This document shows positions 6,607 to 18,236 of a stretch of 64,000 nucleotides of DNA, piece after piece. The stretch lies in the NCBI RefSeq assembly GCF_022700675.1, contig NZ_CP062182.1, positions 2,418,001 through 2,482,000 of the forward strand, written 5' to 3'. A model generated the notes under the pieces. It did no database searches, was not told where the DNA came from, and saw nothing but the letters and a program-made list of their open reading frames with translations. Both the position numbers and the translations under genes were made by a program. Origin of the DNA: Acinetobacter sp. ASP199 (lineage in GTDB: Bacteria > Pseudomonadota > Gammaproteobacteria > Pseudomonadales > Moraxellaceae). How positions within the stretch are numbered: position 1 is the stretch's first letter; the number at the start of each line of letters is the position of its first letter.

Positions 6607-8241
6607 ATGACGATTGCTCCCCGCTTCAAGGCTGACCTGCCCATGGTCACTACCAAACGTAATACTCCATATAAATCTGCGGTTTTACTGGGTTTTAGCC
6701 TTGTTCTGGGAATTCCTGCATGCAGTACCCTGCCTCCACAGGTAGAGCGACCTTCACATACAGCTTTCGAAACTGATACATCCCAGACTTCTTTATCTAA
6801 AATTGTTCAACCTTTACGTGATCAATATATTGGTTTGACTGGCTATCATGTCCTCTATGATCCGCTTGAAGCGCTTGCAGCCCGTATGCAACTGATTCAT
6901 AAGGCTGAGCAGACTTTAGATCTGCAATATTATATCTGGGACAATGACCGGATTGGCGCTCTAGCCTTAAATGGTATTATTCAGGCTGCTGACCGTGGGG
7001 TAAAGGTCCGTCTCCTGATTGATGATAACAATGCCAAGAAGATGGAAGGTATTTATCTGGCCCTGGATCAACATCAGAACATTGATGTCCGCTTATATAA
7101 CCCCTACCGCTTCCGTCAGCATCGCGCCATGGATATGGTACTGGATTTAAAACGTATCAATCGTCGTATGCATAACAAGAGCTTTATTGCAGATAATCAG
7201 ATTGCATTAATTGGCGGACGTAATATGAGCAATCAGTATTACAACGTGAGTGATGCCTATCAGTTTTCCGATGTGGATGTTTTACTGGTGGGAGCTGCCT
7301 CTGACGAGATTATCCATTCCTTTGATGAATACTGGAATGATGACTACGCCTATCCAGTGCGAAATATTGTTAATCCACGTCACCATAGCCTGCGCTTTGA
7401 AAGCCTAAAACAGCAGCTAAAAGCACATCATGATGATCCACGAGTACAAAATTATCTCGACTTAGCCAACAGGTCTAAGGCTTTCGATAAATGGCTTGAT
7501 CATAATATCCAGCTGGATTGGGTTGAAGCAGAAGTAGTTAAAGACTCACCTACCAAGATCAAGTCCAAGGCAAAAAAAGAAGAACACCTGAATTTCCAGT
7601 TGCTCCAGCATCTAGAAAAGCCTGAACAGAGTGTAGATATTGTCTCGGCGTATTTTGTACCAGAAAAAGAAGGGGCTGAACGGCTCAAAAATCTGGCTCA
7701 AAAAGACATAAAGGTTCGGGTACTCACCAATTCTTATAAAGCCAATGACGTGCCTGTCGTGCATGCTTTTTATTCTAAATACCGTAAAGATTTATTAAAA
7801 CATGATGTACAGTTGTATGAATTCTTGGCAGCACCAGATGCAGCTAACCTAAATGCCAATACCAGGGAAATTGCTGACAAGGCTAAAGTGAGCTTGAAAG
7901 GTCTAAGTCGTTCCAGCTTACATGCCAAATTGATGGCCTTAGATGAGAAACAGGTGTTTATTGGTTCTTTTAACTTTGACCCGCGTTCAGCCTATTTGAA
8001 TACAGAGATTGGTGTATTACTGAATAGCCCAACCTTAGCACAAGCTGTGCATAAGACCATGGATCAGAATTTGAGTAAATATGCCTATAAGCTGGTATTA
8101 GATGCCAATCAGAATATCAACTGGAAGATCAAGCAATCCAATGGCGAGATTAAAACTTTGACCAAAGAACCGAAAATGAAATGGCATCAAAAAGCCATGT
8201 TAAAGTTTGTGTCTTGGCTTCCGCTTGAAGGGTTTATGTAA
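6607..8241 (+). CDS. Phospholipase D-family lipoprotein (cardiolipin synthase-like)
   Basis: A 544-residue PLD-superfamily protein with two intact HKD motifs, HNKSFIADNQIALIGGRN near residue 190 and HAKLMALDEKQVFIGSFN near residue 439, the arrangement of bacterial phosphatidyltransferases and phospholipases. The N-terminus has a hydrophobic stretch ending in IPAC (Cys39), a plausible lipobox, so the mature enzyme would be lipid-anchored on the outer face of the inner membrane or in the outer membrane. An alternative ATG at 6643 gives a shorter, more typical lipoprotein signal and has AAGG 11 bases ahead; both starts are possible. Whether it makes cardiolipin or cuts phospholipids cannot be read from sequence. 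Confidence 0.88.
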   Translation: MTIAPRFKADLPMVTTKRNTPYKSAVLLGFSLVLGIPACSTLPPQVERPSHTAFETDTSQTSLSKIVQPLRDQYIGLTGYHVLYDPLEALAARMQLIHKAEQTLDLQYYIWDNDRIGALALNGIIQAADRGVKVRLLIDDNNAKKMEGIYLALDQHQNIDVRLYNPYRFRQHRAMDMVLDLKRINRRMHNKSFIADNQIALIGGRNMSNQYYNVSDAYQFSDVDVLLVGAASDEIIHSFDEYWNDDYAYPVRNIVNPRHHSLRFESLKQQLKAHHDDPRVQNYLDLANRSKAFDKWLDHNIQLDWVEAEVVKDSPTKIKSKAKKEEHLNFQLLQHLEKPEQSVDIVSAYFVPEKEGAERLKNLAQKDIKVRVLTNSYKANDVPVVHAFYSKYRKDLLKHDVQLYEFLAAPDAANLNANTREIADKAKVSLKGLSRSSLHAKLMALDEKQVFIGSFNFDPRSAYLNTEIGVLLNSPTLAQAVHKTMDQNLSKYAYKLVLDANQNINWKIKQSNGEIKTLTKEPKMKWHQKAMLKFVSWLPLEGFM

Positions 8242-8274
8242 GAACTTGGCCAATCTAGCAAGCAGATGAACCCA

Positions 8275-8308
8275 ATAAAAAAACCAGTCAATCGACTGGT
8301 TTTTTTAT
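8275..8308. terminator. Bidirectional terminator between PLD gene and fil operon
   Basis: A-run, AACCAGTC-AATC-GACTGGTT, T-run. It serves the PLD gene on the plus strand and the end of the fil operon (filF) on the minus strand. Confidence 0.85.
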
Positions 8309-8322
8309 TGAAAAGTCTTTTA

Positions 8323-10365
8323 TTAAGATTTTACTTTTACTTTATAGCAGTCGGCAGCGGCAAGGCTAACAGTCCCTCCTGCAAGTTTAGCCAATTTCTT
8401 AACATCTTCATCAGAAGGATTTTGTTTACCATAAACTTGGCTAAAGCTAGCAAAGCTATTTGCCCATTTCACTGTATTCCCTTCAGAGTCTGTCAAACTG
8501 ATCGTCGGTTTGGGAGTGTTCGTACCGTCACCTGTTACCCTTACATTAAATAAATCAGTCAAATGCACTAATGCCCCCCCTACCACGATTGATTCTGAAG
8601 AACCATCAGTTGAGGTCTTGATGGTGGAGTTCATACCAATGAGTGCACCGTTCAGATCCCCTAAAACTTCATTTGCCAAAACCAGACGAACAGAAAGTGT
8701 ATTGTCTGTTTTCTTTCTGACAGCTGAAGGCACAAAGGCACGTGAAACGGTTCCAATACGATATTGTTGTACTGTTTCTACCGCATCCTCAGGACCCTCG
8801 ACAGAATAGGTGGTTTGCATTGTAGATGGATTGAATTCAGCACTACATTCATCAACTTTTGCTGTAGCAGGTTTAATATTCGTACGAATATCACCATTTT
8901 CATCAATCACAATGCCCAAATTAATTGTTCTGTTTGAATCATTGGTTAAGGTGAATTTCAAATCGCCATATAATGGGAAAAAATAAGTTTCTTGATCTTG
9001 TACATTATTTTGAGTCTTAAAAACCCTTCGGTCTAAATGTGTAATTGGATAGATTTTATAAAGATCCATCGTGCCAGCAAAATTCAGTGAACCACCCGTT
9101 TGCTGCCACAGACCTAAGTCACGTTTTTCATTCTCATTTAAGTTATAACTCACACTCTTACCGGTGAGAACCTTGTAAAAACGCTCCTTACCAGCGATCA
9201 TATAATCATTATATAAGCGACCTTGTTCTATCTTGAGTTTCTCGGAAGTAGAATCGCCAACTTTAAATAAATAACCCGGTGTATTGGCAATTTGTTTTGT
9301 TTCCGGGTCAATCCATGAGTTCTGGGCATCTGCAGTCATTTGTACAGGTTTAATACTACGAATTAAATGAGCATTCAGCCCGCCTATGGTCGTAAAATCA
9401 CCAGGATTCTGTGTTGTGCTTTCTATTTTGCCTTTCCACTGTAAGCCACTGCCAAAAGTCATACCCTGTCGGTCAGTCATCAATATAAAGTGACCCAAGA
9501 TATGTGTCAGCTCGGTATCTTTTAACGAGCATTCTCGGTTAAGATTACTGCATCCTACTAACCCTTCTGAACCAGTAACATAACTACCTATGGATTCAGT
9601 AGAAAACAGGGAAAATTCTGGCTGATAAACAGCAGCATTTGAAATATTTAATAATGCTTGAAGTACCTGTTTGGCCTGTTCTTTAGTAATCGTTGTTGGC
9701 CCCAACCATGTTTTCAGTAAAGCATCAAAATCCTGATCAGATAAAGTCTTAATTTTTTCAACAGTAATATCTTCATCTAATTGATCAAGTCCAGCTCGAA
9801 TATCATCATTTATCGCAACAGGATAGATTTCCGTTGCTGATCGTAATTGATCGCTATTTAAACCCATGGCCTGAATTAACTGGACTAAGCGAATAGCAAT
9901 ATCATATTGAGACAGGTTACCTGCTGAGTTGGTCTTACGAATGCCCTCAGCGATATCCAATAAATTCATACGTGGATAATGAGATTTAGACGTAACATTA
10001 CCAATCTGATTCATTGAGAATGAACCCAAATCTACACGTCTTTCATCTTTACCTAAGATATAGAAAGTAATTGACTGGCCTACTTTACAGGCACCTGTTG
10101 CCACGCCCTTATCTACGTCATAGGTTGTGATAAAAGTTTGCTTTGTATCATCGCCACAGTAAAAATCTAAAGTCTGTAATGGATAATCTAGAGCAAATTC
10201 AATACAACCTGGCCTTGTGCCAATACAAGCTCCATTGATTGTACTACTATCATATTTTTCTGGAATAACATCCGCGCTTTCACCGCCACATCCTTGGAGC
10301 AAGATTGCCATAGCTGAGAATGCAAAAGGTAATATTATTTTATTCTTATTCATCTTTATACTCAT
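8323..10365 (-). CDS. filF: FilF-like outer-surface lipoprotein, last gene of fil operon
   Basis: A 680-residue lipoprotein: the signal peptide ends in LLQGC (Cys26), followed by GGES. No enzymatic motif is visible. The early part has six or more cysteines (GACIGTRPGC, FYCGDD, GACKVG) that may form disulfides, and the C-terminal half is beta-rich. By position as sixth gene of a filA-F set, size and lipoprotein signal it corresponds to Acinetobacter FilF, annotated as a putative pilus assembly or surface protein. The ATG at 10365 has AAGGA formed partly by the filE stop (TAAGGA), so it is coupled to filE. The name rests on my memory of gene order and family; function is unproven. Confidence 0.75.
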   Translation of the reverse strand: MSIKMNKNKIILPFAFSAMAILLQGCGGESADVIPEKYDSSTINGACIGTRPGCIEFALDYPLQTLDFYCGDDTKQTFITTYDVDKGVATGACKVGQSITFYILGKDERRVDLGSFSMNQIGNVTSKSHYPRMNLLDIAEGIRKTNSAGNLSQYDIAIRLVQLIQAMGLNSDQLRSATEIYPVAINDDIRAGLDQLDEDITVEKIKTLSDQDFDALLKTWLGPTTITKEQAKQVLQALLNISNAAVYQPEFSLFSTESIGSYVTGSEGLVGCSNLNRECSLKDTELTHILGHFILMTDRQGMTFGSGLQWKGKIESTTQNPGDFTTIGGLNAHLIRSIKPVQMTADAQNSWIDPETKQIANTPGYLFKVGDSTSEKLKIEQGRLYNDYMIAGKERFYKVLTGKSVSYNLNENEKRDLGLWQQTGGSLNFAGTMDLYKIYPITHLDRRVFKTQNNVQDQETYFFPLYGDLKFTLTNDSNRTINLGIVIDENGDIRTNIKPATAKVDECSAEFNPSTMQTTYSVEGPEDAVETVQQYRIGTVSRAFVPSAVRKKTDNTLSVRLVLANEVLGDLNGALIGMNSTIKTSTDGSSESIVVGGALVHLTDLFNVRVTGDGTNTPKPTISLTDSEGNTVKWANSFASFSQVYGKQNPSDEDVKKLAKLAGGTVSLAAADCYKVKVKS

Positions 10366-10375
10366 CTCGTTATCC

Positions 10376-11569
10376 TTAACGGATACCTATTAATTTTAAT
10401 TGTCCTTGATTACTTAATACCCGCTCCTCAACATCAATTGCCGAGGCCAATGGCGTTAATAATAAATAGTGGCTATCACGTGGTACCTGTATCATGCCTT
10501 CTATATTTTCGTATTTCAGGTAATCCGATGCTGAATCATTATTTTTAAATCCACCGGCCCCTTCCAGAATACAACCTTTTTCATCCAAGAACACTGCAAA
10601 TGGCCAATAAAAAGTGGGATCTTTTTCACGGGATGCATAAGATTGAATCTGAATATTTTGTAAAGGTTGTTTTAATTTCACTACTTCAAAGTCAAATTCA
10701 TCCTTTAAAGGTGCGCGAGGCCAGAGATTTACCTGAGTATCCAGTGCAATATCCTTGGCTTTTTTAATTTTTTTATCCTGAAAACAGGTGCGCCCCATTC
10801 CCTCAGAAGCAGTTTCTGCAGAAATACGGTAATACGTACTCGCTAGAATGAGAGGAGTATCCTGCCCAGTATCCCTATTTTTCTTAAATAAAGCATGCAT
10901 AACCGATTGTCCAACACCTTTTTCACGTTGAACCGTTTGCAGGCGTGTTGCTCCATTTTTAGTATCAATTATACCTTCCGGCATGGTATAGAAGCGTTTA
11001 TTGCCATCCAGATTAAACTCTTTTTCCTCAAGCACTTCATTTTTGACATATTGGTTGCCTTCTATTTCCAAGATATCACCTTGCTCATCAAAGTACTTTT
11101 TTAAATTTTCGGCCGATGCTGGCTGGATATCTTCACTTTCCAGAGCAGACTGCTGGACGACAATAGGTTCAATCGAATGATCAAGATTCTGTTGTGAGCT
11201 ATTGCTTGATAGAGTCTCTGGAATATCTTTCGTATAGATAGCAGGAGATGAAGTACGCGTTTTATTGATACTCTCTGAATGAGGTAAATTCTTTTTATTC
11301 TGAATTAGATCATTCTGTTTAACTTGCTGCTCTGTAACGACTTGACTGCTTTGAAGTTTAGTGGGTGCAGTCATGACCTGCGTTTGAGGATGCAAAATCT
11401 GTTTTTTTGGACTTGACTCTAAGACCGTTCTGGTTTGAGTATTATTTTTTTGTACTACCATTGGTCGGCCATCTGGACCAATAATCGTATGGAATGTACC
11501 GGCATAAACATTCCCTAATTGTGCTGTTATCAACACAACTAACGTCCTTAGCCATAAATGTCCTATCAT
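10376..11569 (-). CDS. filE: FilE-like exported protein of fil operon
   Basis: A 397-residue protein with a signal peptide (cleavage expected near NVYAG, residues 20-24). Right after it comes FHTIIGPDGRPMVVQ, which resembles the short beta-hairpin of DUF4124-type periplasmic proteins. Residues 40-150 are polar, Gln/Ser/Thr-rich and probably disordered; the last 200 residues look folded (TYYRISAETASEGMGRTCF, then FYWPFAVFLDEKGCILEGAG), with two cysteines that could form a disulfide. It is the fifth gene of the operon; its ribosome-binding site GGTAGG overlaps the filD stop TAG. A role in assembling or presenting the fil product is likely from context only. Confidence 0.72.
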   Translation of the reverse strand: MIGHLWLRTLVVLITAQLGNVYAGTFHTIIGPDGRPMVVQKNNTQTRTVLESSPKKQILHPQTQVMTAPTKLQSSQVVTEQQVKQNDLIQNKKNLPHSESINKTRTSSPAIYTKDIPETLSSNSSQQNLDHSIEPIVVQQSALESEDIQPASAENLKKYFDEQGDILEIEGNQYVKNEVLEEKEFNLDGNKRFYTMPEGIIDTKNGATRLQTVQREKGVGQSVMHALFKKNRDTGQDTPLILASTYYRISAETASEGMGRTCFQDKKIKKAKDIALDTQVNLWPRAPLKDEFDFEVVKLKQPLQNIQIQSYASREKDPTFYWPFAVFLDEKGCILEGAGGFKNNDSASDYLKYENIEGMIQVPRDSHYLLLTPLASAIDVEERVLSNQGQLKLIGIR

Positions 11570-11579
11570 CCTGATATGC

Positions 11580-13247
11580 CTACCATCTTGTTCTATAATT
11601 AAGTCCTAAAATTGTAATTTTTGTATCTGTTTTAACATTTAAACCCGCGTATGGATTTAATAATAAGTTATTAACACCTGTCTGGTTTGAAAGACTACTG
11701 CTATTAGCTGGAATACTATCCTTACTCCGTAAGAAACCAATCGATAAATCGAGATCTGTGTCTGCATCAAACTTGTAACCTACGCCCAGGCCAAATAATT
11801 GGGCATTATTGATCGGCACCATCGTGTTACGCTTGTTATCAGGAATAGCACTCGAACGCGGCTCATAACCTGCACGCAGCTTTAGACGGTCTGTTGCTGA
11901 GTATTCAAAACCGATTCCCCAACTCCATGGTGAGGTAAACTCAAGGGGTAAGGCTAATGAAGTATCGGTAACATTTGCAGATAAAAGCTTGGCAATTTTC
12001 AATGCTGAAATTTGACGATCAAATTCGAAACGGAATTTGTCCCAGGCTTTATAATCTGTCCATCCAACATCAAAATTAACCTGCAAATCAGGCAATAATT
12101 TATATTTAATTCCCGCCTGAAAATGTGCTGGAAACTCCAGATCCATGGATACCAAACCAGATTCACTCGCTGGTACAGAATTTGGGAATCCGAGAATAGC
12201 TGCAAGAATCTGCCCTGTCGGAGAAGACATCAAGCCCTTGATCATCTCCTGCGGCGCTCTGGCATTATCAATGTGATATTTACCCTTAAGGCGCATTTTT
12301 GCTGAACTTTGGTAGACCATACCAAAACTGAAATCTTCAGTAGGTTCCCATAGTACACCCAAGTTATAACTCGGGCTCAGGGATTGTTCCAGTCCAAGTT
12401 GCATTTGACCAAATTTGCCAAATGGATTCATTCCTTCTTGAGCATTACACATCCCGAGTAAAAGAATATCGGTGATAATGTCCGAGTTTTCTTTAAATGG
12501 TGTACATACCACTTCATCGATCATTCTCAGCATGCCGATGAGTTCATTCGGAAAACGTAGGTCGGTTTTCATACCCATGGCTTGGTATGACATACCGACA
12601 CCACCTCCAATCGAAAGCGTATCACTGACCTGATAGCCTACCGAAGGTGACAGATAGGTAATCCGCTCAAGTGCAACCTGCTGCCCCATATAGTTTGCAG
12701 GATTGCCACTTTCAGCACCAAAACCCGCCATAAGAGGTGCATATACAGCTGTCGCATAAGTTGCTTTGGAGCCTGGTGGATTATAGGCAATTCCCATCGT
12801 GGGTGCAGCCACTGGCATCCCTTCCCCCAGATCTACCATCTTTTTTAAAATAGGTACATATAAGCTAACGTATTCAACGTCACCTCTGATCGGCCCATCT
12901 TTAAAATCAGTACATAGATCTGAATTGACCTCTGGTCCATCATTACAAACCAAAGGATCATCTGAATAACCGAAAACGTTATAACCAGCAGGGACACTGA
13001 ACTCACGTCCAATATCAAAATTAGCAATAATAATCTGTTGCTCAGTTTGTAAGCCCTGAATTTTAGTCAAACCTGCCGGGTTAAAATGAACAGCATTAAC
13101 TCCTGGCGGATCTGCAGTGACTGCATTACCTAGTGAAAGCGAGCGCAGGTCAACCGATAAATTTGTTCCTAATTGTGCAAATGCTGCACCTGAACAACCC
13201 GTTAAAAGAATGGCACTCACTAACGGGCTGAGTCGAATTTGTCTCAT
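11580..13247 (-). CDS. filD: FilD-like FadL/OmpP1-family outer-membrane channel
   Basis: A 555-residue outer-membrane barrel of the FadL/TodX family. After the signal peptide the mature protein begins with LGTNLSVDLRSLSLGNAV and has the diagnostic AVHFNPAGL (residues 52-60), the NPA kink of FadL plugs. The C-terminus ends in a strand with terminal aromatic residue (GLNYRTRW), as expected for BAM insertion. The signal region has two competing readings: a lipobox-like LLTGC at 14-18 and a normal AFA-Q site at 22-25. FadL proteins move hydrophobic molecules across the outer membrane; within this operon it might instead help export. Its ribosome-binding site, AAGGGG, overlaps the filC stop. Confidence 0.82.
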   Translation of the reverse strand: MRQIRLSPLVSAILLTGCSGAAFAQLGTNLSVDLRSLSLGNAVTADPPGVNAVHFNPAGLTKIQGLQTEQQIIIANFDIGREFSVPAGYNVFGYSDDPLVCNDGPEVNSDLCTDFKDGPIRGDVEYVSLYVPILKKMVDLGEGMPVAAPTMGIAYNPPGSKATYATAVYAPLMAGFGAESGNPANYMGQQVALERITYLSPSVGYQVSDTLSIGGGVGMSYQAMGMKTDLRFPNELIGMLRMIDEVVCTPFKENSDIITDILLLGMCNAQEGMNPFGKFGQMQLGLEQSLSPSYNLGVLWEPTEDFSFGMVYQSSAKMRLKGKYHIDNARAPQEMIKGLMSSPTGQILAAILGFPNSVPASESGLVSMDLEFPAHFQAGIKYKLLPDLQVNFDVGWTDYKAWDKFRFEFDRQISALKIAKLLSANVTDTSLALPLEFTSPWSWGIGFEYSATDRLKLRAGYEPRSSAIPDNKRNTMVPINNAQLFGLGVGYKFDADTDLDLSIGFLRSKDSIPANSSSLSNQTGVNNLLLNPYAGLNVKTDTKITILGLNYRTRW

Positions 13248-13258
13248 AAGACAGCCCC

Positions 13259-14434
13259 TTAGCGAATTTTCTTACCAAAACCTAAAATATCGAGTGGGAA
13301 AGATAGACCGAGCGAGACATCAGGTGCATCTTCCGTTAATCCTAGCCCTACAGTACCATTGACAATTGTTTCAGGAGAGATACGTACCCCGAGGGAAATT
13401 GCAAAGGTTGAACTGGTTTGATCTGCTGGCGAGTAACTTTCACCACTTGAATATCTGAACTCTGAACCAGTATTAAAGCTTTGCTGATAGGACATTGTCA
13501 TTGAGACATCGTAATTAAACGAGTAAGCAAAACCAAAAGCAAAACCACCACTGATTCCGGGTTCAAATTCATCAATTACACGGTAACCCCGACGCTGATT
13601 TAAGTCAGTTACTTTAAATCCATAATTGGCAGAAACAGAAGCAAACAATACGACTGGATCAATATATTTACGGGTACTTGCTCCCACGCCTACAGCGTAA
13701 TAGCCCTTACCTGTGGATAAATCATCAGCCGCATTAATTTCATATGGACTATCACCGGTCTTAGTGGAAAGATTACCAAATAAAATGAGTGGCAGACGTC
13801 CTGCTTTTAATGGAAATGGTTCCCAACGTGCTCCAAGACTTATATCACCTAAACCTGCTGTAGACGTATCTTTCAATAAGTCTGTTTTGGTTACCAGCGG
13901 TAAAGACGCTGTTAGGGTTAAATTGTCCTTTAGACCGTATTGTGCAGTGAATGTGTTAGTCAGCGTATGGGTTGCATTTTCCTGAACACGTAACTGATAC
14001 AGTTGGCCTTGTGCCATTTCCAGATCTAACTGAGTATCTCGATAATAGGTATAGTCAATGTCATAATACGATGAAATTTCACCTTGCTTAATAAGTGAAT
14101 ATTGACGCTCATTCGAAGTAAAGACCTCTTCAAGATTTGTTTCTTGAGATGCATCCCCTTCACGCTGTTGTAATGCAGATGAAGCTTTTACCGGTTCTAC
14201 GACTTGTTGTTCTACCGTAGTTGCTTGTGTTGATTCTGCAGTATTTTCCTCTGTCTCAGTGACTTGCTCATATCCACCTAATTCAGTTTCAGCTACAGAT
14301 TCAGCAACAGCTTCTTCTACTTCTACGACTTCCTCGTATTCCCCTAATGCCGGCTCATCTGCAGCATATGCTGCCCCCATGACCATTTGAACACTAAGTG
14401 CCAAGAGAGTTTTGTTCATCCATTCACGTTTCAT
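13259..14434 (-). CDS. filC: FilC-like outer-membrane beta-barrel protein with acidic N-terminal repeats
   Basis: A 391-residue protein: signal peptide to about residue 25 (AAYAADE), an acidic low-complexity region (26-95), then a beta-barrel resembling the phenol-MetA/FapF-like transporter fold (LKDNLTLTASLPLVTKTD, then AGLGDISLGARWEPFPLK). The acidic region contains a degenerate tandem repeat, LGEYEEVVEVEEAVAES at 30-46 and LGGYEQVTETEENTAES at 52-68. The layout of a long periplasmic N-terminus plus barrel is the one described for FapF, the outer-membrane secretion channel of Pseudomonas functional amyloid; the parallel is an inference. I chose ATG 14434 because GGTGGG lies 7-8 bases upstream. 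Confidence 0.78.
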   Translation of the reverse strand: MKREWMNKTLLALSVQMVMGAAYAADEPALGEYEEVVEVEEAVAESVAETELGGYEQVTETEENTAESTQATTVEQQVVEPVKASSALQQREGDASQETNLEEVFTSNERQYSLIKQGEISSYYDIDYTYYRDTQLDLEMAQGQLYQLRVQENATHTLTNTFTAQYGLKDNLTLTASLPLVTKTDLLKDTSTAGLGDISLGARWEPFPLKAGRLPLILFGNLSTKTGDSPYEINAADDLSTGKGYYAVGVGASTRKYIDPVVLFASVSANYGFKVTDLNQRRGYRVIDEFEPGISGGFAFGFAYSFNYDVSMTMSYQQSFNTGSEFRYSSGESYSPADQTSSTFAISLGVRISPETIVNGTVGLGLTEDAPDVSLGLSFPLDILGFGKKIR

Positions 14435-14483
14435 GTTGCATCCCACCATTTTTATTTTTCTAATTCAGTTTTTTAATTAGTTT

Positions 14484-15317
14484 TTACTTGCTCTTATAAT
14501 AAAGTCTTAAGAAGTTATAGGTTGGCTGTCCAAAGGACTCAGATTCTGGATTCATATTGGTATCCAGACGAATTGTAGATGCCTTATCTGCAATTTTTTC
14601 CATATAGAACTGTGGATACTGAAAATCTACCAATGCATAACGGTTAATCGTGGCATCCTCAACATGGCGCATATCTGAATCTTGGAGTGCCAAGAGGTTT
14701 TTACGATATTGCTCAGGCACATTGATTAAATACAGCGTATTATTTTCCCAGACCTGTTTAAAACGTTGTTCATCAAAACTAATATTACCGAGTGCTGGAT
14801 CTGCGACATAAACACGCCCATCTTTATATGCTTTATAGACAACAAAATGTTTAAATCCTGCATAAGAAATAGGAACAATAGCCGGCTGCCCTTGTTTGAC
14901 CAAGTCTTCAAATTCTCCTCTATAGCCTCCACTTTCCAAGCCCAAAGCGGCTACAAAACGTTTCATATCCAGAAGAGAAAAGCTACGGCGTTCAATAATC
15001 TTATCGGTTTCACCAAATTGCATTAGACCATTCATGATTTGCTGTTCATCCAGCTGCGTACCCACATAACCATTCAATAAGGTCGTGAGAGCTGCTGAAC
15101 CACAGCTATAGTCATAGGCTTGGCGGACAATCCCTCGAAATTGATCCTGTAGCGCTGGTTTAATCCGCACGGGCTCACGATGCATACGCACAAAAGAATC
15201 CTGACGGGAATCTAAGGTTTCAGTATAGCGAACTGTTTCAGCGGGCTGTTCCTTGATATCAAAGGCTTCTTTGGCAGCGTAGTAGATCAATGCCGAGCCC
15301 AACGCGATCTCTAACAT
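14484..15317 (-). CDS. filB: FilB-like stand-alone C39-family cysteine peptidase
   Basis: A 277-residue protein with a peptidase C39 domain: QAYDYSCGSAALTTLL gives the oxyanion Gln66 and nucleophile Cys72, GFKHFVVYK the His157 and YVADPALG the Asp173. C39 domains normally sit at the front of bacteriocin ABC exporters and cut after a GG leader; here there is no ABC or membrane-exporter part, as in FapD of the Fap amyloid operons. The N-terminus (LEIALGSALIYYAA) is a short hydrophobic segment that may act as an uncleaved anchor or poor signal peptide. It follows filA after a terminator and a 160-base gap. Its likely substrate is FilA, as inferred from neighbourhood and motif. Confidence 0.85.
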   Translation of the reverse strand: MLEIALGSALIYYAAKEAFDIKEQPAETVRYTETLDSRQDSFVRMHREPVRIKPALQDQFRGIVRQAYDYSCGSAALTTLLNGYVGTQLDEQQIMNGLMQFGETDKIIERRSFSLLDMKRFVAALGLESGGYRGEFEDLVKQGQPAIVPISYAGFKHFVVYKAYKDGRVYVADPALGNISFDEQRFKQVWENNTLYLINVPEQYRKNLLALQDSDMRHVEDATINRYALVDFQYPQFYMEKIADKASTIRLDTNMNPESESFGQPTYNFLRLYYKSK

Positions 15318-15464
15318 ATTTTTTTACTTTTCTTATCATCGGCATGATGCGCCTGATTATTCTTTTTATAGAGTTTTCACCCTACTTCCTTGTAACTAGA
15401 AAGATACCTTCTTTTTCAAAAAAATACAGTCTTTTTTTATTTTTTTAGATAAATGATACAGTCA

Positions 15465-15491
15465 TAAAAAAAGCGCGTGTAAACACGCACT
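15465..15491 (-). terminator. Terminator between filA and filB
   Basis: Read on the minus strand, GTGCGTGT-TT-ACACGCGC is followed by T7, directly behind the filA stop. It should leave filA mRNA more abundant than filB-F mRNA, which would then depend on read-through or on a promoter in the AT-rich 15318-15464 gap. Confidence 0.85.
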
Positions 15492-15504
15492 TTTTCGATT
15501 GAAC

Positions 15505-16647
15505 TTAGTGACCAGCGATAGTAATAATCGCACCTGGATGGTAAGTACCTTGGGATGGGCTATAGTAAGTTTGCATGCCCTGAACTTCCATATCACCAAT
15601 AGAGGCTGCAGCTCGGCTACCCAATTGAATACCTTGTACATAAGTATCATGCGCGCCACTAGTACTTACAATACGAATGAAACCATTTTTATTAGCATTT
15701 TCAGCTGGTAAACCTGATGCACCGAATACACTGATACTTTGATTCAACGTTAAATCTTTAGAATTAGCATCAGTTACCTTAATACTTCCAATGAAAATTT
15801 CACCTGGACCTGATGTGGTTACACCTGTAGCAACTGTTGCACCAGTCGTTGAATTATCAAGAATACCTAAGTTTTCAATCGTTAAGCCGCCAACCATTTT
15901 AGCACTCAATTGAATCATTGCGCCTTGTGGTGCGGCGCCTAATTGAATATTAGCTGACATTGGACCAGTCTTGATAGACAGTCCACTTAAGATATCATTA
16001 ACCTTGCCAGTACCACCACGACGGATTGAGGTAGCACTATTATTTAAAGCTGCACTAGCCTGAACACCAATTTTACCAATTTTGATATCTAAACCTGAAA
16101 CTTTTGCACCAATATTAATGAATGGATTACCATCACCAGCATCAGAGTCGATTGTTAAATCTGCAAGGTTACGACTAGCCAGCAAATACGCACCGTTATC
16201 GTCATAGTTTGCACCGATCACAAGACCATGTGTTTCGTTTGCATCACCAGCTATACCATTACCATAGATAACAATTGCTGCAGATTCACCTTTACCACCT
16301 AAATTAACAGCTCGAGAGGCTGAATCATATGAAGCTGTATTTGTGTCTATCTCAACTACTGTACCACGTTGAAGAGTTGGTAATTTACCTGGTGTATACT
16401 CAATACCGCTTTGATCTGATTTTAACTTTATACCACCAAACGATTCCATCGTAGCAGTTGTAGATAAACCATCATTGTCATGAATAAACAACTTTTCAAT
16501 TTCAATTTTAGAGATACCAATACCGATACTCAAACCGTCTTGACCTGTAGTTGCGCTTAATGCTGAATCATCCATGGCTTGCATTGCCATCGCATTTGCG
16601 CTAATCGCCATTGAAGAAATTAAAGCTAATTTAGTGAATTTTTTCAT
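15505..16647 (-). CDS. filA: FilA-like secreted structural protein, first gene of fil operon
   Basis: A 380-residue exported protein. The signal peptide covers about residues 1-21 (KKFTKLALISSMAISANAMA), followed by MDDSALSATTGQDG (25-38) and a long repetitive beta-rich body with alternating Gly, Ile and polar residues (GLSIGIGISKIEIEKLFI, then GLTIENLGILD), consistent with a beta-helix or fibre subunit. No cysteines or catalytic motifs are visible. It matches Acinetobacter FilA by leader, size and place as first gene. The ATG at 16647 has GGGAGAG at good spacing; a start at 16689 would put 14 polar residues before the signal. It is divergent from pabB, and its own terminator suggests high expression. 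Confidence 0.8.
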   Translation of the reverse strand: MKKFTKLALISSMAISANAMAMQAMDDSALSATTGQDGLSIGIGISKIEIEKLFIHDNDGLSTTATMESFGGIKLKSDQSGIEYTPGKLPTLQRGTVVEIDTNTASYDSASRAVNLGGKGESAAIVIYGNGIAGDANETHGLVIGANYDDNGAYLLASRNLADLTIDSDAGDGNPFINIGAKVSGLDIKIGKIGVQASAALNNSATSIRRGGTGKVNDILSGLSIKTGPMSANIQLGAAPQGAMIQLSAKMVGGLTIENLGILDNSTTGATVATGVTTSGPGEIFIGSIKVTDANSKDLTLNQSISVFGASGLPAENANKNGFIRIVSTSGAHDTYVQGIQLGSRAAASIGDMEVQGMQTYYSPSQGTYHPGAIITIAGH

Positions 16648-16904
16648 TCGTACTCTCCCAAGAGTATTATTTTTTTGGTTGTGAATCACTCTTTGTCCAT
16701 GATGTATTTTTATTTTAAGACAGCACGGACAATTAATCCTTGAGTGATTTGCTCGCCCAAATAAATTAGCTTCCTGTCAAATTTTGATCAACTGTTGTTG
16801 GTCGCATTCTGCTATTCACCGATAAACGGTATATTCAAGTTTCACCTCATTTTTCTTGATAATTGAGATAGAATCATCTCAGTCTCTTGAATGCTTTAAA
16901 CTGA

Positions 16905-18236
16905 ATGCATAACCCAACTTATCAACATCTCCTGATTGCTTCAAACACCCTTCCACATGTCATCTTAGAAGCATTAAGCCCCCTGGATCATGTTGTATAT
17001 TTGCATGATAGCGGTACACCATTTATTGCCTGCTGCGCTGAACGCTATACAGTTGTACAGGATGATAAAGTACACACTTATCAAGCTGTTTCTTTTAATC
17101 AGTATGAAATGATTGCTCCAGATTTAACTGTCAGTTTCACGTCTAAATCAAATTTCGGAGCTACCGGATTTAATGGCGGCTTTGTTGGATTCATTTCTTA
17201 TGACTTCGCAGCTCAGCAGCAAGTTCATTATGGACAGCGCCATCAGCCAGCCCTTTTTATGGGACAATTCTCTACTTATTTAAAACTGGGTCCAGAAGGA
17301 TGGATTTTTAAAAGTAGTCATCCTGAAGCAGAACAGATTTTTCAGCAGATTCAGGCTTTGCTTGATCAATTCCATAATAAGTCTAAATTTAGTTTAGTTT
17401 CTCCATGTACGGCCCGTTGGAATAAATCGGCTTATCAGGAGGCTTTCAGTCAAGTTCAGGAATATATTAAAGCGGGCGACTGTTATCAGATTAACCTGAC
17501 TCAAGAATTTTCAGCACAAGCTCAAGGCACTGTATTAGCCACAGCAGAACAATTTTGGCAGCTAACCAATGCGCCTTATGCAGGTTATTTACGAGTGGGT
17601 GAGTTTGAACTGTTAAGTTGTTCACCAGAACTGTTTATTGAGTTTCAATCTGAGCGACGGATTATTACCAAACCAATCAAAGGCACGATGCCGCGTTATG
17701 CAGATCCAATATTGGATGAGCAGTCTAAACAGACCTTAAAGAATTCTGAAAAAGATCAAGCTGAAAACGTGATGATCGTAGACTTATTGCGTAATGATTT
17801 GAGTGTTTATGCGGAAACTGGCTCAGTTAAAACACCAAAGTTGTTCAATATTGAAAGTTTTAATCAAGTTCATCATATGGTCAGTGAAGTACAAGCTACG
17901 CTGAAAAAAGATGTAAATCCATTTGATGTTTTAATGTCTGCCCTGCCCGGTGGTTCAATTACTGGTGCACCAAAAATTCGGGCTATGCAAATTATTGAAG
18001 AACTGGAAGGTGCACCACGTGGTGCCTATTGTGGTTCAATGGGCTATTTCAATAATGACGGTACTGGATCGTGGAACATCTTAATTCGTTCAATACAGAA
18101 ATACCAAAATGAGGTGTCACTATGGGCTGGTGGCGGGATCACGATTAGTTCAAATGCTGATGCCGAATACCAGGAATGTTTTGATAAAGTATCTGCGATG
18201 CTAAATTTATTGAATACCTGGTATAAACCTGAATAA
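16905..18236 (+). CDS. pabB: Aminodeoxychorismate synthase component I
   Basis: A 443-residue chorismate-utilising enzyme that aminates chorismate to 4-amino-4-deoxychorismate for p-aminobenzoate and folate synthesis, using ammonia from a PabA/TrpG glutaminase encoded elsewhere. The motif PIKGTMPR near residue 256 has the Lys that separates PabB from anthranilate synthase TrpE (Ala at that place). ALPGGSITGAPKIRAMQII near 345 and the GGGITISSNADAEYQE end segment are the metal and chorismate site. The start at 16905 has no clear ribosome-binding site but gives a normal length. It is a single gene, divergent from filA and followed by a palindromic repeat. Confidence 0.92.
   Translation: MHNPTYQHLLIASNTLPHVILEALSPLDHVVYLHDSGTPFIACCAERYTVVQDDKVHTYQAVSFNQYEMIAPDLTVSFTSKSNFGATGFNGGFVGFISYDFAAQQQVHYGQRHQPALFMGQFSTYLKLGPEGWIFKSSHPEAEQIFQQIQALLDQFHNKSKFSLVSPCTARWNKSAYQEAFSQVQEYIKAGDCYQINLTQEFSAQAQGTVLATAEQFWQLTNAPYAGYLRVGEFELLSCSPELFIEFQSERRIITKPIKGTMPRYADPILDEQSKQTLKNSEKDQAENVMIVDLLRNDLSVYAETGSVKTPKLFNIESFNQVHHMVSEVQATLKKDVNPFDVLMSALPGGSITGAPKIRAMQIIEELEGAPRGAYCGSMGYFNNDGTGSWNILIRSIQKYQNEVSLWAGGGITISSNADAEYQECFDKVSAMLNLLNTWYKPE

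Follow-up and report, generated by a model that had tools for sequence, protein, structure and literature searches.

The fil operon of Acinetobacter: a proposed Sec-dependent, leader-addressed surface-export system related to Fap

The fil Operon

The filA-F operon is widespread in Acinetobacter, where it is labelled only as a 'putative pilus'. A working model for this surface operon is developed here from the copy in Acinetobacter sp. ASP199. The stretch analysed, called the window, comprises 64,000 nucleotides of a 3.05 Mb genome (G000; contig NZ_CP062182.1, positions 2,418,001 to 2,482,000), and coordinates are counted from its first letter.

15505..16647, minus strand: filA, exported subunit of 380 residues with a DUF6160 N-terminus (NF050077, 4.3e-86; PF19657, 2e-10)
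16585..16647, minus strand: Sec signal peptide of FilA, residues 1-21 (ending ANAMA), read from the sequence
16540..16584, minus strand: leader of FilA, MQAMDDSALSATTGQ, residues 22-36, proposed recognition sequence for FilB
15473..15488, minus strand: terminator-like hairpin, 3' of filA and 5' of filB (z -4.08 for the 187-nt gap)
14484..15317, minus strand: filB, stand-alone C39 cysteine peptidase related to FapD (PF03412, 7.5e-16; residues Q66, C72, H157 and D173)
13259..14449, minus strand: filC, outer-membrane barrel related to FapF, by sequence and AlphaFold model
11580..13247, minus strand: filD, barrel of the FadL/OmpP1 family (PF03349, 9.7e-61; NF050080)
10376..11569, minus strand: filE, exported protein with a FilE_C domain (PF22881, 1.1e-66)
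8323..10365, minus strand: filF, large putative lipoprotein (NF050081), with a lipobox-like start, LLQGC, read by eye

Open reading frame (ORF) coordinates and NCBIfam matches confirm the six consecutive minus-strand genes at 8323-16647 that a preliminary description of this DNA had recognised, and all six products (6/6) are assigned to the 'putative pilus' families FilA-F by NCBIfam models, at scores above the curated thresholds. The gap between filA and filB is 187 nt, and the following four are 34, 11, 10 and 10 nt. The operon is flanked by a phospholipase-D-like gene (6607-8241) and by the divergent pabB (16905-18236, TIGR00553); an Rfam scan of positions 8000-17000 gave no match. The preliminary description was also right about the products: FilB is a stand-alone C39-type peptidase with its catalytic residues kept, FilC and FilD are outer-membrane barrels, and the lipobox-like start agrees with FilF being a large lipoprotein.

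The name given by NCBIfam, together with the label 'type III pili' used for the operon in print (PMC3203104, PMC5376624), would make fil a conventional pilus. This reading retains hardly any credit, since it is largely refuted already by gene content. In Pfam and NCBIfam searches, filA-F gave no match to chaperone-usher, type IV pilus or sortase families, as the preliminary description had it, and pilin and ATPase families were likewise unmatched.

'Fil fimbriae' with FilA as their subunit have been reported in Acinetobacter sp. Tol 5, where cells grown on triacylglycerol bore long, curved fibres, deduced to be Fil, and a FilA band was identified by Edman degradation (PMC3498257). FilA has been detected by proteomics (PMC11784438), FilC and FilF are increased in biofilm and FilF in pellicle (PMC8792954, PMC3203104), and FilF has been evaluated as an antigen for vaccines (PMC5343991, PMC11834437). 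The Tol 5 fimbriae and the 'type III pili' of A. baumannii (A1S_0690-0695) are the same operon by name, their sequences being unaligned. The accessible parts of this literature treat Fil as fimbriae or pili and give no mechanism, leader or Fap link, and no connection of Fil with Fap, or of DUF6160 with a peptidase, was found in the accessible open-access texts. Fil fimbriae with a FilA subunit had thus already been reported, and the leader on FilA and its paralogues, described below, is new.

FilA as the extracellular fibre unit, a proposal of the preliminary description, had likewise been deduced in print for Tol 5 (PMC3498257). Support for its supposed 'beta-repeat' character is weak and concerns the beta part: an AlphaFold model built from 48 sequences is all-beta, at low confidence (pLDDT 56). 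The fold taken from this model was set aside because of that confidence and the lack of any PDB match (best E 0.2).

The impression that FilA is abundant is supported by codon usage. In codon adaptation relative to rpoB, filA ranks 6th of the 40 ORFs in the window, and filB-F rank 24-36. The hairpin 3' of filA carries a T-run, and a terminator recurs in the filA-filB gap: mononucleotide shuffles predict 2.3 loci with one, and 67 of 115 have it (12 gaps of unsuitable length, short or long, were unscored). A terminator and rpoB-like codon usage fit a subunit that is made in quantity and a machinery that is scarcer; the terminator after filA would leave the subunit in excess.

Kinship with the Fap System

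FilB matches the FapD model at 5e-32 (111 bits, equivalog cut-off 330) and is the only match to that model in the window genome. The C39 residues Q66, C72, H157 and D173 are kept in 17/17 aligned sequences, two of which are FapD-type. FilC matches the FapF model at 2.5e-19 (69 bits, equivalog cut-off 700), and FapF is its only hit at E<=1 when the PDB is searched by sequence (4.6e-11). The AlphaFold model of FilC (pLDDT 71) has a low-confidence region at residues 15-88, which is probably disordered, and a short helix (102-113) preceding the barrel. When this model was compared with known structures by Foldseek, the top 18 chains were all FapF (E 6e-21 to 5e-17, TM 0.77-0.87 on the target), followed by a COG4313 channel (9e-12) and then autotransporters (~1e-6). 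FilB is therefore homologous to FapD, as judged from sequence, and FilC to FapF, as judged from sequence and predicted fold. The preliminary description would have been undermined had the two proved unrelated to their Fap counterparts; the kinship was found for both.

Both systems combine a FapF-like barrel and Sec-exported substrates with a stand-alone C39 peptidase whose catalytic residues agree, and a leader-like motif is present in FapE. There are differences as well. Among filA-F, only FilB and FilC matched Fap models, so that no homologue of FapA, FapB, FapC or FapE was found, in a model library that includes FapE and for which FapA is unchecked. FilA gave no match at E<=1 to Fap subunit models, FapB and FapC included. 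FilD, FilE and FilF are extra genes with no Fap counterpart found in this analysis. The fil leader sits on the subunit, at the mature N-terminus, and ends in GQ. The scores of FilB and FilC lie far below the Fap cut-offs, and the two systems coexist in one genome: a Moraxellaceae relative (G013) carries both fil (L045) and a fap locus (L053) with FapD at 385, FapC at 334 and FapE at 334 bits, all above their cut-offs, and FapF at 681 against a cut-off of 700.

This coexistence marks fil and fap as sister systems. The preliminary description had left open whether fil is related to Fap or convergent with it; fil is related, through FilB/FapD and FilC/FapF, and it is a sister system and not a Fap operon. 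It falls outside Fap on four tested features, and a Fap-like working of its peptidase and channel is well supported. That FilA is an amyloid, and fil a functional amyloid system of the true Fap type, is accordingly a poor prospect: the homology of the peptidase and the channel, and the fibres, long and curved, that were ascribed to Fil in Tol 5 (PMC3498257), speak for it, and the unmatched FilA, the low FilB and FilC scores and the presence of both systems in G013 speak against it.

What is known of Fap bears directly on the role of FilB. Secretion of FapC depends on FapD, whose catalytic cysteine is required (PMC5557850). Its target was called unclear in 2017, with suspicion falling on FapE, which has GG motifs and a missing N-terminus, peptides from about the first 70 residues being absent; cleavage of the FapF linker was proposed as a possibility (PMC5557850). 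FapD and FapF have been considered likely members of larger protein families (Dueholm 2013, PMC3792158).

A Conserved Leader on FilA and Its Paralogues

Directly after the Sec signal peptide, FilA and its paralogues share a conserved leader of the form …MDDxxLSxxTGQ|DG…, where the bar marks the proposed cut. A profile built from 34 FilA-like proteins and run on 136 loci gave 178 matches in 128 of them. These comprise 82 matches in 80 distant loci, none of which was used for the profile, 73 in Moraxellaceae and 23 in others; the last two sets had contributed some of the peptides. Counted back from the proposed cut over the 178 matches, the frequencies are 0.98 for M/L at -12, 0.97 for D/E at -10, 1.00 for L/M at -7, 0.95 for G at -2 and 0.98 for Q at -1. 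The family profile also shows the A-x-A that precedes the leader, at 0.83 for the first A and 0.96 for the second (177-178 matches).

In leaders of the double-glycine type, positions -12 and -7 are hydrophobic and position -2 is G, the pair at -2/-1 being GG (or GA/GS). The fil leader agrees with this consensus at -12, -7 and -2, and departs from it in having Q at -1. The likeness to export by C39 ABC transporters consists of the C39 peptidase and this spacing. Unlike in those transporters, the fil peptidase is not fused to a transporter, the leader follows a Sec signal peptide and ends in GQ instead of GG, and exit is presumably through an outer-membrane barrel.

The window genome has five matches to the profile (four of them among the matches listed). 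As read, these are FilA and the products of four consecutive genes outside the window, at about G000:C1:2302360-2309049 (L054:5430-12119). The four are exported proteins of 467, 753, 241 and 720 residues that share only the leader with FilA; past the leader, none of the five shows significant similarity to another (best E 0.077). They are candidates for further cargo of FilB and FilC. NCBIfam and Pfam searches of 10 leader proteins gave meaningful matches to DUF6160 and FilA models only, weak stray matches being ignored. Three matches to a regular expression for the leader (L165:2035, L178:11973 and L105:4082) were clearly false and were set aside.

Co-Occurrence of the Leader with FilB and FilC

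Among 249 Moraxellaceae genomes, in which FilB was counted at >=300 bits and the leader as Pfam DUF6160, FilC was found in 101, FilB in 101 and DUF6160 in 106; in 12 more, the sole C39 is a weak match of a different kind. The leader occurs together with FilB/FilC in 101 genomes and alone in 5, FilB/FilC occur alone in one (G053), and 142 have neither. The leader profile was run on 80 of the 91 Acinetobacter genomes sampled. All 61 genomes with fil (61/61) have at least four leader matches. Among the 19 without fil, the profile found nothing in 16, a lone weak match (E 0.0068) in one and four matches each in the remaining two.

Shared ancestry by itself could produce such co-occurrence. An rpoB tree was made for 79 of the 80 genomes, G197 having no rpoB match, and on it the presence of fil requires 8 parsimony changes, compared with a mean of 16.3 and a minimum of 11 in 500 label shuffles. 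This indicates that the genomes without fil are clustered, yet fall in several lineages.

In a sample of 274 genomes from the class, DUF6160 is found in six, all of which have a stand-alone C39 peptidase; two of the six are Moraxellaceae, and the other four (4/4) have neighbouring FilB and FilC genes. In three of these (L092, L098 and L102) the leader gene lies elsewhere and not in the FilB-FilC stretch examined, as would be expected of service in trans, unlike an operon. When the leader profile was run on 80 class genomes, no match was found in the 46 without a stand-alone C39 (three of which carry the ABC-transporter type), and among the 34 with one, the four genomes just named matched strongly and two more weakly (0.005 and 0.008).

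A scan for FilC in a collection of genome contigs returned 346 loci, and the best 80 were kept. Their carriers include Pseudomonas (among them P. aeruginosa PA7), Alcanivorax, Thalassolituus, Oleispira, Parendozoicomonas, Kistimonas and others. The order FilB-FilC-FilD is found in 80/80, with gaps of up to 192 nt (FilB-FilC) and 115 nt (FilC-FilD), and a leader protein is encoded within the locus in 79/80, none of these having been used for the profile. By homology, the model for fil would extend to Pseudomonas, Alcanivorax and marine genera.

Leader-Like Motifs beside Other C39 Genes

A Fil-leader matrix lacking position -1 was applied to the neighbours of C39 genes outside fil, namely 19 of 20 loci from 18 genomes (L272 was excluded because its C39 frame is split) together with five fap or fap-like loci (L053, L103, L109, L110 and L111). 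No test locus was in the training set, and 'near' meant the same strand and within 2.5 kb of the C39 gene. Of 83 exported-looking ORFs near such genes, 19 scored >=6 (13/24 loci), against 0/150 that were far away or on the opposite strand (near versus far, Mann-Whitney 5.9e-14). A second background gave 6/350; this figure is too high, because no fewer than five of those matches come from loci with short upstream flanks and are genuine Fil leaders. The variants beside non-Fil C39 genes end in AG, GG, GA or RG.

The RG form leads to FapE. Five loci have matches to the FapE model, above the cut-off in L053 and below it (67-114 bits) in L103, L109, L110 and L111; in five others (L275, L284, L286, L287 and L288), the protein encoded just after the C39 gene has no FapE match in NCBIfam. 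All ten of these FapE and FapE-position proteins contain hydrophobic-x4-L/M-x2-hydrophobic-R-G, reading LxxxELxxLRG, with the G at ORF residue 46-78, and only 3/10 reach a matrix score of 6. No protein with an RG motif was found beside the C39 genes of L283, L285 and L289. The RG motif is a candidate FapD site in FapE by sequence, and its position agrees with published data in which peptides from roughly the first 70 residues of FapE are missing (PMC5557850).

These motifs bear on whether the leader is cut at all. It might instead be a targeting or anchoring signal that is read uncut by FilC or another outer-membrane part, with FilB acting elsewhere, for example on the FilC linker. Conservation fits a bound signal as well as a cut one, GQ is non-canonical, and cleavage of the FapF linker has been raised as a possibility (PMC5557850). 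The spacing matches that of C39 leaders, however, and leader-like motifs stand beside non-Fil C39 genes, so an uncut leader appears unlikely.

A Proposed Export Pathway

On the simplest account, leaders are cut by periplasmic C39 peptidases related to FapD and FilB, and the products are exported by barrels related to FapF and FilC, the leader being placed on FapE in fap and on the subunit and further cargo in fil. Under this account, FilA would cross the inner membrane by the Sec pathway, and signal peptidase would leave the 15-residue leader at its N-terminus. FilB, assumed from FapD to be periplasmic, would recognise the leader by the spacing shared with double-glycine leaders, in which hydrophobic residues at -12 and -7 are followed by G at -2, and would cut it at or just after GQ. 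FilC would then carry the released protein out, and FilA would assemble into the Fil fibre outside the cell. FilB and FilC probably also serve leader proteins encoded elsewhere. It is thus probable that fil is a Sec-dependent, leader-addressed surface-export system and a sister of Fap, in which FilB cuts the leader and FilC exports. Processing of FilA by FilB, as the preliminary description had it, gains specific support from the leader, the cleavage itself being inferred.

Several points weigh against this pathway. As a C39 site GQ is non-canonical, and NCBIfam double-glycine leader models gave no match on the 10 leader proteins scanned. The N-terminus of FilB is hydrophobic and lacks a basic start, and the fold of FilA was not recovered from its model. 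Cleavage, export route, extra cargo, fibre structure and expression ratio are all steps of inference. In 2/38 Moraxellaceae fil loci, there is no leader gene in the stretch examined. Among the 34 class genomes with a stand-alone C39, 28 have no leader match, and the four strong matches outside Moraxellaceae are not an independent test, since the profile contained peptides from these genomes. Finally, the five Moraxellaceae genomes with the leader alone comprise G037 (95% complete, 300 contigs), G041 (74%) and G072 (59%), and two Acinetobacter, G151 and G207, that have four leader proteins each and no FilB/FilC.

In the last two, the absence of fil looks like recent loss. Each stands single among fil-bearing relatives on the rpoB tree. 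In G151, which is sister to the window genome, an IS5-family transposase gene stands in the place expected for filA-E and the first half of filF (L192:7743-9767), and only a C-terminal FilF ORF is left. G207 has no close match of pabB, the gene adjoining fil.

A broader claim is that FilB-FilC forms a general export pathway of Gammaproteobacteria for otherwise unlinked proteins with a Sec signal and a GQ leader, and that FapE, FilA and the small exported proteins encoded beside C39 genes share the grammar L-x4-[LM]-x4-G. For this, the chances seem about even. If it is true, the shared grammar names FapE as a substrate of FapD and gives the position of the cut. In two sister systems, the sequence motif connects periplasmic C39 peptidases with specific proteins as candidate substrates and with exact sites to test, and it points to where proteases of this family, their target being unsettled, may cut.

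FilD, FilE, FilF and Possible Contact with Hydrophobic Substrates

The vaguest part of the pathway concerns FilD, FilE and FilF, which may have a part in assembly, anchoring or contact with substrates at the outer membrane. The kinship of FilD with FadL, the triacylglycerol effect in Tol 5 and the range of carriers suggest contact with hydrophobic substrates. Alcanivorax, Thalassolituus and Oleispira are oil degraders. On these grounds fil could be chiefly a device for the uptake of, or contact with, hydrophobic substrates, in which FilD and FilC are channels and FilA is a receptor on the surface for lipid or oil. The FadL family of FilD, the COG4313 channel as the next structural match of FilC after FapF, and the fibres attributed to Fil that covered triacylglycerol-grown Tol 5 cells (PMC3498257) point the same way. 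As a rival to export this is improbable: the C39 peptidase and the leader on unrelated proteins would be left unexplained, and FapF is the better match of FilC (6e-21 versus 9e-12). As a downstream role, it is compatible with export by FilB and FilC.

FilD also matches a PorV/PorQ model at 39 bits, below the cut-off of 90. PorV/PorQ is a FadL-like partner in type IX secretion, and a cargo-binding role of FilD is possible by analogy.

In two distant loci, FilC (L102:9358-10860 and L096:3253-4719) has a longer N-terminal part in place of the low-complexity linker, which in L102 is OmpA/peptidoglycan-binding-like. Two genomes of one family (G385 and G498; L092-L095, L099-L101 and L107) have 17 and 21 leader matches, mostly short scattered ORFs, and one FilB-FilC pair was found in each. 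In P. aeruginosa PA7 (L168), the fil-like genes lie near ppsR and ppsA and include a relative of FilA with 163 residues; in PAO1, they may correspond to PA1761-PA1764. PA1764 has been listed as a FadL homologue (PMC6137939), and PA1761/PA1762 appear in an expression table (PMC12431658).

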